Of a stretch of 64,000 nucleotides of DNA, positions 41,035-60,574 are shown piece after piece. Position 1 is the first letter of the stretch. Every line of letters starts with the position of its first letter. The notes under the pieces were generated by a model. The model did not search any database and was not told the DNA's origin. It saw nothing but the letters and a program-made list of their open reading frames with translations. The stretch spans positions 1,480,501-1,544,500 of the forward strand of contig NZ_CP046566.1 in assembly GCF_009740285.1 (NCBI RefSeq). Direction: 5' to 3'. This stretch comes from Phnomibacter ginsenosidimutans (GTDB lineage Bacteria > Bacteroidota > Bacteroidia > Chitinophagales > Chitinophagaceae). The position numbers and the translations under genes were made by a program.

Positions 41035-41736
41035 ATGAAGAAGGTATTGCTACCACTCATGCTCATTTTTTCAGCAGTAACGGCTATGGCCCAAAGCGCT
41101 GACGAAATCATCGACAAACACATTGCGGCCATCGGCGGCAAGGAAAAATGGCTCAAGGTAAAATCGGTACAAATGGAAGGCACCCTGAATATACAGGGCC
41201 GTGATATTGGCGTAAAATTGACTGGAGTTCATAACATTGGTTCACGCCAGGATATCTCTGTAGCCGGTATGACAGGTTACATAATTTCTACTCCCACTGC
41301 CGGCTGGCAGTACATGCCTTTTCAGGGCCAAACCAAACCAGAACCATTGCCTGCCGATGCTGTAAAAGCCGGCTTGGATGATCTCGATTTGCAGGGCAAT
41401 TTAATTGACTACAAAGCCAAAGGTCACACTATAGAATACCTGGGCACAGAAGATATTGAAGGAACTGAGTGCCACAAGCTGAAAGTAACCCGTAAGAACA
41501 GCGGCGATCAAACAGTATTTATCGACGCTGAAACTTTTTATGTGATTCGTACGAGTACGAAGATTAACATGAACGGTCAGGAAGTGGAATCGAAAGTTGA
41601 CATGAGCGACTACCGCGATGTAAATGGGATCAAACTCGCTTTTTCTTTAACTCAGTCAATTGGTACTGTGGTGATGACCAGTGTGAAAGTAAATGAATCG
41701 GTGGACGAAAAAATCTTTGCTGATCCTACTAAATAA
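41035..41736 (+). CDS. Exported LolA-like/outer membrane lipoprotein-sorting protein
   Basis: A 233-residue protein with a signal peptide ending VTAMAQ. ADEIIDKHIAAIGGKEKWLKVKSVQMEGTL is typical of Bacteroidota proteins annotated as outer membrane lipoprotein-sorting proteins. Later strands include GTECHKLKVTRKNSGDQTVFIDAETFYVIRT. It is related in fold to LolA but lacks proof of lipoprotein transfer. It lies 104 bases upstream of the VPS10-like gene, in the same direction. Confidence 0.78.
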   Translation: MKKVLLPLMLIFSAVTAMAQSADEIIDKHIAAIGGKEKWLKVKSVQMEGTLNIQGRDIGVKLTGVHNIGSRQDISVAGMTGYIISTPTAGWQYMPFQGQTKPEPLPADAVKAGLDDLDLQGNLIDYKAKGHTIEYLGTEDIEGTECHKLKVTRKNSGDQTVFIDAETFYVIRTSTKINMNGQEVESKVDMSDYRDVNGIKLAFSLTQSIGTVVMTSVKVNESVDEKIFADPTK

Positions 41737-59572: not shown

Positions 59573-59642
59573 TAATGGGACACGGAAAATGGGACGCGGA
59601 TTTTTGCGAATGGAATGGATTGCCACGGATGTCTTTCGAGTA
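59573..59642. other. Non-coding tail after the NlpC/P60 gene
   Basis: Short AT-mixed sequence with a GGACGCGGATTTTTGCGAATGG stretch leading into the repeat array. No gene or signal seen. Confidence 0.4.
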
Positions 59643-59802
59643 AAGCCCTGAAGGGGCGACCATCACTCAGCCACGGGTGCAGCCCGTGGTACAAAGGACA
59701 ACAAAAGATACAAGCCCTGAAAGGGCGATTATCATCTAGCCCCGGGTTTTAACCCGGGGGGTAAATGGGCAACAAAAAAACACCAAGCCCTGAAAGGGCG
59801 AC
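59643..59802. repeat. CCCTGAAAGGGCG palindromic repeat array
   Basis: Two full units of about 70 bases and one partial unit start at 59643, 59711 and 59783. Each opens AAGCCCTGAAAGGGCGA (the first reads CCCTGAAGGGGCG), itself a hairpin. Each full unit then has a second hairpin (CCACGGGTGCAGCCCGTGG; CCCCGGGTTTTAACCCGGGG) and an ACAAAA-rich spacer. The hairpin arms differ but stay complementary, so structure appears conserved over sequence. Confidence 0.7.
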
Positions 59803-59962
59803 ATGATGAGGACTGGCTGAATGAGTAAATGAGTAACCATACGTCACAGGCCGGGAGGCCTGCGACAGCAGAGGATGAAAACGGATGCACACGGATTTTA
59901 ATAAAATGCTTTGTGTGCTCTGTGCCCTCTGTGCGAAACATTTAGCCTCGATGCAAGCTCAC
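59803..59962. repeat. Further degenerate repeats before the ppa terminator
   Basis: Holds a CAGGCCGGGAGGCCTG palindrome near 59847 and a CTTTGTGTGCTCTGTGCCCT stretch near 59911 related to the CTCTGTGG repeats at 22.8 kb. No gene is seen. Confidence 0.45.
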
Positions 59963-60000
59963 AAAAAAGCGACCAACACAATCTGCTGGTCGCTTTTGCT
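59963..60000. terminator. Terminator of the lipoprotein-crcB-ppa operon
   Basis: AAAAGCGACCA / TGGTCGCTTTT forms an 11-bp stem. On the minus strand it ends in six T. It begins 22 bases beyond the ppa stop. Confidence 0.8.
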
Positions 60001-60022: not shown

Positions 60023-60574
60023 TTAGGTGCCGAATTTCACTTTGTACGCTTCAATGCTGGCATTGATGATTTGCAGGGCTGTGGCTTTGTCGCCAAAGTC
60101 TTCTACCTGCACACTCTTGTTTTCGAGTTTCTTGTAGTCTTCAAAAAACTGCCGCAGTTCTTTAAAGAAATGCGGACCGAGTTCTTCAATGTTGTTGATG
60201 TGGTTTACACTCATATCGTTGGAAGCAACGGCAATGATTTTATCATCGGCATCGCCACCATCAATCATTTGCATTACACCAATTACTTTGGCTTCGATGA
60301 TGCACAACGGCTGCACACTAATGCTGCTGAGTACCAAAATATCCAGCGGGTCTTTATCGTCGCCATAGGTTTGCGGAATAAAGCCGTAGTTGGTGGGGTA
60401 GTAGAAACTGGAGTAGATTACCCGGTCGAGTTTCAACAGACCCGTTTCTTTTTCGATTTCATACTTGGCCCTGCTGCCTTGCGGAATTTCAATGATAGCG
60501 TTGACGGTACGTGGGGCACCATCGCCATAAGGAACGCCGTGCCAGGGGTGATGTACGTTGATGTTGGAAGTCAT
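60023..60574 (-). CDS. ppa: Inorganic pyrophosphatase (family I)
   Basis: A 183-residue cytosolic pyrophosphatase that hydrolyses PPi to two phosphates. Active-site motifs are [32 protein letters not shown] and the signature [13 protein letters not shown]. It starts 3 bases below crcB, so both are in one transcript. Fluoride is a classic inhibitor of this enzyme, which makes the pairing with a fluoride exporter meaningful. Confidence 0.95.

Follow-up and report, generated by a model that had tools for sequence, protein, structure and literature searches.

The question raised by positions 59643-59802 of the stretch analysed here (the window, 64,000 nt, positions 1480501-1544500 of the 4.37 Mb single-contig genome of Phnomibacter ginsenosidimutans, denoted G000) is what kind of element is formed by three copies of one hairpin (hairpin A, AAGCCCTGAARGGGCG) and two copies of another (hairpin B) arranged in the order A-B-A-B-A. 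The array is very probably a stand-alone, non-autonomous mobile DNA repeat, similar to repetitive extragenic palindromes (REPs), of a clade of Y1 HuH transposases of the IS200/IS605 type. This reading is based on the nearness of the unit to a gene of the clade in all 80 loci collected, on the co-occurrence of unit and gene across genomes, and on inverted pairs of units that enclose no gene. The identity of the array as a REP-like repeat of the Y1 clade, orphaned in G000, is firm, and the mechanism of its spread is inferred from what is known of related enzymes.

Association of the unit with a Y1 transposase gene clade

The repeated unit comprises hairpin A and hairpin B, separated by some 12 nt of linker, with units chained through shared A hairpins (A-B-A, A-B-A-B-A). 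A search for Y1 transposases (PF01797) found them in 43 of 59 relatives of G000; in G005, from the same genus, and in G046 the gene is set inside unit arrays and adjoins matches to the Rfam family RF01687 (Acido-Lenti-1 RNA), lying between two such matches in G005. A covariance model of the unit, R1, was built from 26 aligned units of G000, its genus mates G001, G002, G006 and G007, and G022; no training unit came from G005 or G046, and none stood beside a listed PF01797 match. Four transposases encoded beside units (from G046, G005 and, twice, G055) served as queries, and the best 80 of 276 stretches encoding a relative, drawn from 84,980 species genomes, were kept as loci, L140 being G046's own contig. 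R1 gave 528 matches at E<=5 in the 998,286 bases of these loci. Among the best 150 matches, 135 fell no more than 500 nt from the gene, in 11.4% of the bases, and served 61 loci; the other 19 loci, searched separately, all held R1 matches of at least 27.0 bits within the same distance, bringing the loci with a unit that close to the Y1 gene to 80/80. The exact sequence GCCCTGAAAGGGC occurred 226 times in the 80 loci, 215 times within 600 nt of the gene, and its reversed pattern not once. In 52 locus records of other Y1 genes from the relatives of G000 (with one overlap, L060 and L078), an R1 match at E<=1e-3 was obtained only in L094, from G022; L095, L091 and L071 came close to the cut at 21.9, 20.5 and 20.0 bits.

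The orientation of units was counted from three batch R1 searches of the 80 loci at E<=2e-4, which returned 283 matches in 79 loci, 257 of them within 500 nt of the gene. For the unit nearest the gene, sense orientation prevailed upstream (56 loci, versus 11 inverted) and inverted orientation downstream (40 loci, versus 16 sense), and 33 of the 44 loci with units on both sides showed opposite orientations (27 sense/inverted and 6 inverted/sense). When hairpin A within 110 nt was counted with strict orientation in the 79 loci, it stood upstream in sense in 37 and inverted in 11, and downstream inverted in 38 and in sense in 12; the upstream-sense and downstream-inverted copies occurred together in 22 loci, the background being 4 of 6659 windows. 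This count supersedes one made with a pattern blind to orientation (upstream 52, downstream 53, both 37 of 79 loci). For 20 of the 37 upstream sense copies the gap to the ATG is 8-17 nt, and the commonest distances of downstream copies past the stop codon are 7 and 26 nt. As is expected of REPs, copies flank a Y1 HuH gene in inverted orientation, which is the common arrangement and not the only one.

Across 296 Bacteroidota genomes at least 90% complete, surveyed with a transposase cut of E<=1e-49 (53% identity or more) and with strict R1 filters applied to at most 20 candidates per genome, the unit was found in 50 genomes, a close transposase in 23 and both in 20. The unit was present in 20 of the 23 genomes with a close transposase versus 30 of the 273 without one and, by genus, in 16/16 with the transposase versus 6/124 without, one of these six being the genus of G000, where G005 has the gene. 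Fisher tests, in which kinship is ignored, gave p values of 1e-14 for genomes and 2e-16 for genera.

Units also occur in pairs that enclose no gene. In G353 (the genome of L172, an Adhaeribacter rhizoryzae record), ten plus/minus pairs spaced 67-171 nt apart are among the matches listed; read by eye, they have the form A-B..B'-A' without a gene, and one pair, in the opposite order, stands at the gene locus. G349 (record 'Bacterium UASB270') holds 73 unit matches, and in its L300 and the neighbouring L292-L307, A-B units lie inside an element ending in CGTGAGTTCGGGATAAG that is common to many copies, with an apparent 8-nt direct repeat (target duplication) around it at L300, read by eye. These common termini and the direct repeat would suit units that are passengers of an ordinary (DDE-type) miniature inverted-repeat transposable element (MITE) and stand near Y1 genes by chance. 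In G353, however, the similarity between arrays ends at hairpin A (by eye), and the Y1 gene accompanies the unit in 80/80 loci and 16/16 genera, so that a chance association of this kind is hardly credible and the least probable of the readings weighed here.

Covariation, the folded strand and the match to Acido-Lenti-1 RNA

An Rfam scan of the 2.5 kb around the array, up to E 5, returned three matches, each to RF01687 and each on the minus strand. They score 32.7, 24 and 15.5 bits, none reaching the gathering score of 37, and the best covers 59713-59759 at E 5.3e-5. Another G000 copy, at 40.2 bits, exceeds the gathering score. RF01687 was matched in 8 of the 59 relatives, over the gathering score in three; six of the eight belong to the genus's ten genomes, G000 included, and G022 is another of the eight. 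Of 12 transposase loci that were scanned, five likewise hold a match above the gathering score, and two (L209 62-138 and L201 11477-11556) gave matches to group II introns (RF00029). The unit shares with Acido-Lenti-1 RNA the same two hairpins and their spacing, two of the three window matches spanning model positions 1-46 of 46, but the Rfam model lies on the opposite strand and is called a small RNA. In PMC2864571, Acido-Lenti-1 is listed for Acidobacteria and Lentisphaerae and rated a probable RNA, whereas the units described here are from Bacteroidota and the UASB270 genome. Apparently the same repeat has been on record since 2010 as non-coding RNA without a known function, and the passages on Acido-Lenti-1 in PMC13298647 (2026) and PMC10059132 treat it as non-coding RNA, a regulatory role, for example beside proteases in Tannerella, being still proposed in the former. 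No paper tying RF01687 or this two-hairpin repeat to a transposase was found in searches covering the main text of openly licensed PMC papers.

The first-pass annotation had expected covariation among copies, and it is present. In alignment A3, drawn from the transposase loci (150 rows, of which 141 are distinct), pairing holds in 98% of cells and both sides have changed in 182 cells versus 50 in shuffles and at most 45 in slid controls; selection of the rows with a structural model biases them towards pairing, and covariation among the training units is inflated because these were picked with a pairing filter before alignment. In a bias-free test anchored on hairpin A, a 7-pair stem came after 72 of the 226 exact cores, at offset 12 in 58 cases and with 35 different arm pairs in all, versus 1.09 in mononucleotide shuffles (maximum 5); for the other 154 cores the search, within its limits, found no stem B. 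The loop-closing pair of hairpin A, read on the plus strand at 309 sites with a pattern blind to both bases, was Watson-Crick at 240, T-G at 55, C-A at 4 and other at 10. Since a T-G pair on the plus strand corresponds to a mismatched C-A on the minus strand, folding is more likely for the window's plus strand, which is not the strand of the Rfam model. The GT/AC asymmetry of hairpin B (3 versus 5 of 156 pairs) gave no strand signal.

The minus-strand RF01687 match, the covarying base pairs and the regulatory role still put forward in 2026 could together be taken to mean that the unit is a small structured non-coding RNA, Acido-Lenti-1 as in Rfam, acting in trans. Covariation is, however, equally compatible with a folded DNA strand, and the excess of T-G over C-A in hairpin A favours the strand opposite to the Rfam model. 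Moreover, an RNA acting in trans accords poorly with units that stand by the transposase gene in every locus, often on both sides and in opposite orientation, with inverted pairs lacking a gene, and with copy-number steps from one A hairpin to another at a single site (see below). It is accordingly very improbable that the unit is such an RNA.

With regard to the sequence before hairpin B in A3, the base adjoining the stem is A or G in 134 of the 141 distinct rows, with A ahead of that base in 133. Y-A-R mostly stands there in place of the GTAG/GTGG foot of REPs, a foot whose GTAG form is described in PMC8266576 as mattering to varying degrees in the REP enzymes covered there.

The array and its copies in the P. 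ginsenosidimutans genome

Tandem hairpin units, as the first-pass annotation described them, are present in the window (Table 1). An 18-nt stretch, (C/A)AAGCCCTGAARGGGCGA, starts at 59642, 59711 and 59784, with spacings of 69 and 73 nt; hairpin B follows about 12 nt beyond the first two copies of hairpin A and is lacking after the third. The arms of the two B hairpins differ in sequence and keep their complementarity, also as described. With up to two mismatches, GCCCTGAAAGGGCG occurs four times in the window (three times in the array and once at 41315) versus 0.58 expected, a number reached by 0 of 100 shuffles, and single-stranded DNA folding of both units beats shuffles on either strand (z -2.7 to -3.7).

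Table 1. Hairpins of the A-B-A-B-A array, in window coordinates.
Feature	Position	Strand	R1 score
Hairpin A, copy 1 (AAGCCCTGAAGGGGCG)	59643..59658	+	
Hairpin B, copy 1 (CCACGGG / CCCGTGG)	59671..59689	+	A+B unit 59643-59691, 63.7 bits (unit in R1 training set)
Hairpin A, copy 2 (AAGCCCTGAAAGGGCG)	59712..59727	+	
Hairpin B, copy 2 (CCCCGGG / CCCGGGG)	59740..59759	+	Unit 59712-59761, 56.3 bits (unit in R1 training set)
Hairpin A, copy 3, terminal, without hairpin B (AAGCCCTGAAAGGGCGA)	59785..59801	+	25.2 bits

The copies that the first-pass annotation asked to be counted do exist: across the whole G000 genome, AAGCCCTGAAAGGGCG with up to two mismatches occurs at 17 places versus 2 for the reversed pattern. 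Of 12 copy sites inspected, nine are crossed by no open reading frame (ORF) of at least 90 amino acids, L007 and L010 each have such an ORF across them, and L013, one of the 17 places, is contained in a long ORF and appears to be a chance match. The repeat is in this respect a mainly extragenic palindrome present in many copies, as REPs are. In plasmids, unit DNA gave one chance-like match only.

The spacer that holds the array in G000 has an orthologue with A-B-A twice, within a larger duplication, in G002, and with one A hairpin and no B in G006. The copy number at this site changes by whole A-to-A units, which fits both recombination between A copies and action of the enzyme, and these cannot be told apart. 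When four other G000 arrays were compared with G002, G005 and G006, the array was present in one species and absent from another at three of the four.

The array lies in a convergent spacer between the NlpC/P60 gene (58784-59572, plus strand) and an inorganic pyrophosphatase gene (60023-60574, minus strand). This setting, together with the ability of either strand to fold (DNA parameters), would allow the units to have been co-opted as transcript-end elements of the NlpC/P60 gene, in attenuation or 3' stabilisation, the latter also considered by the first-pass annotation. The orthologous spacer of G006 has only a single A hairpin, however, and a separate inverted repeat at 59965-59997, close to the end of the pyrophosphatase gene, could itself be a terminator. 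A terminator scan found four terminator-like sites versus 2.5 in shuffles (sd 1.6), two of the four being hairpin A on the minus strand, which makes a weak case for a terminator or attenuator as the main role. Co-option at the transcript end is on balance unlikely, though some stabilisation of the NlpC/P60 transcript may arise as a side effect.

Two further repeats were noted in the same spacer. A palindromic repeat, GAGTAACCATACGTCACAGGCCGGGAGGCCTGCGACAG, at 59828-59870 has many more copies in G000, G002 and G006, and copies flank a gene for a REP-associated tyrosine transposase (RAYT; NF047646; G000, 104 kb) on either side, so that the spacer carries repeats of two different Y1 systems. A third dispersed repeat (59872-59943, around ACGGATGCACACGGATTTT...CTTTGTGTGCTCTGTGCCCTCTGTGCG) has several copies within the genus.

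The transposase and the place of the repeat among Y1 systems

The transposase proteins P0001 and P0002 match Pfam Y1_Tnp (P0002, PF01797, 97.3 bits) and, in NCBIfam, NF033573 (IS200/IS605 transposase) and not NF047646, the RAYT model. The RAYT-type transposase suggested by the first-pass annotation is thus represented by a cognate Y1 HuH gene clade, but one that falls outside the RAYT family model. The alignment of P0002 to the ISHp608 transposase spans the HuH (DHIH) and tyrosine (Y-Q) regions (E 6e-7), and among the 80 proteins (150 amino acids) DH[IV]H is found in 79, WQ in 78 and Y...Q..HH in 78, with an internal stop in two. The predicted HuH and tyrosine catalytic residues are those of IS200/IS605 enzymes, and motifs and length (DH[IV]H, WQ, Y---Q--HH, about 148 amino acids) suggest that the enzyme fits TnpA-Y1 subclass 1.2. 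That subclass (about 150 amino acids, mostly Bacteroidetes) is reported in PMC6006769 to have no REPs; here, by contrast, the genes stand among two-hairpin units.

The system resembles the 'REPtrons' of REPs or bacterial interspersed mosaic elements with their RAYT (TnpA-REP) in its short dispersed palindromes, found singly, in pairs and in clusters around a Y1 HuH gene and genome-wide, and differs in the two-hairpin unit, in the Y-A-R that mostly precedes hairpin B and in an enzyme assigned to NF033573. With IS200/IS605 elements such as IS608 it shares a Y1 HuH transposase near hairpins, similar to that of ISHp608, and it differs from IS608 in having several two-hairpin units around the gene and many copies without one.

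G000 itself has seven PF01797 matches, but no close transposase was found there, the nearest relative, at 3950006, being 39% identical. The genome's own Y1 genes were therefore rejected as the mobiliser, as this nearest one lacks a full unit nearby and has a best R1 match of 13.7 bits; it has GCCCC..GGGGC hairpins on both sides, and its protein could act in trans on hairpin A. In plasmids the best relative of the transposase is 57% identical. The cognate gene has probably been lost from G000, so that the copies would be relics that also change in number by A-to-A steps. The first-pass annotation's suggestion that a distant transposase moves a REP-like element is supported by the copies, the covariation and the clade, and 'distant' is apt for G000, given the 39% identity of its nearest relative.

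Other Y1 genes of the order (L050, L053, L059, L091, L093, L104 and L107) have inverted hairpin flanks of their own, with a GGTAGC stretch after the hairpin in L093, and two further G000 Y1 genes about 2.6 kb apart (L078, 1300-4250) each stand near palindromes of their own (CCCACGGTT..AACCGTGGG and GCTCCGTAGGAGC). An inverted-repeat flank test at p<=0.05, with a shuffle floor of 0.005, was passed by 22 of 44 loci of relatives, four of the clade included, and by 52 of 78 testable clade loci. Since hairpin types differ by family, the wider claim, for every class-1.2-like Y1 gene in the order, was dropped and only that for the clade is kept.

Several observations weigh against the reading of the array as an orphan repeat of this clade. 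The 80 loci are best matches to one query with some near-duplicates among them and so are not independent. The unit is also not wholly confined to the clade, since L094 has matches of 35.8 and 26.1 bits and a third that scores lower, and together they flank a gene whose protein shares 35% identity with the query. Three of the 23 genomes with the transposase gene had no unit at the strict filter, and among the 30 of 273 genomes that hold the unit without a close transposase are G000 and 15 species from genus g92, in which two further species hold both. Units had the same orientation on both sides in 11 of the 44 two-sided loci (8 sense/sense, 3 inverted/inverted), the orientation of all matches within 500 nt is mixed (upstream 96 sense and 40 inverted, downstream 62 and 59), and the polarity of the G055 units is the reverse of that in G005. 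A GTAG foot is absent among the 25 commonest tetranucleotides before hairpin B and present in 2 of 26 training rows. Comparison of the four G000 arrays between species yielded neither a clean empty site nor a target, their junctions lying in repeat-rich, messy spacers. Many UASB270 copies lie inside another apparent MITE with terminal inverted repeats, so that their spread there may be due to another enzyme. Finally, no movement of the unit was observed.

The autonomous form of the repeat is tnpA, the gene for a 150-amino-acid Y1 HuH transposase of the IS200/IS605 type, set among units, most commonly as A-B...A-tnpA-A'...B'-A' (primes marking inverted copies), with outer units in both orientations and some loci of opposite polarity. 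By analogy with IS608 and the TnpA-REP enzymes, the protein may bind the folded single strand at A and/or B, would cut it through a 5'-phosphotyrosine and may move units in trans while the DNA is single-stranded.

It is an even question whether this extends to the whole Acido-Lenti-1 family, founders included. Its members would then be DNA ends and satellites of subclass 1.2 Y1 HuH transposases that use a two-part site, a near-invariant hairpin A and a covarying hairpin B with a Y-A-R foot instead of a GTAG guide, and would form a REPtron type of their own in Bacteroidota and at least one genome labelled outside them (UASB270). The Acidobacteria Y1 genes with terminal inverted repeats mentioned in PMC3733652, and class 3 with about 600 structures in Solibacter mentioned in PMC6006769, may be the founding Acido-Lenti-1 copies and offer a lead in that direction.

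With the array read as a repeat of the Y1 clade, an Rfam family of unknown function would gain a concrete identity, and cognate repeats would be attached to a transposase subclass reported to have none. Acido-Lenti-1 matches beside genes, such as the proteases of Tannerella discussed in PMC13298647, should not be read as regulatory RNA. A direct biochemical test becomes possible, the enzyme, the substrate and the controls being named.
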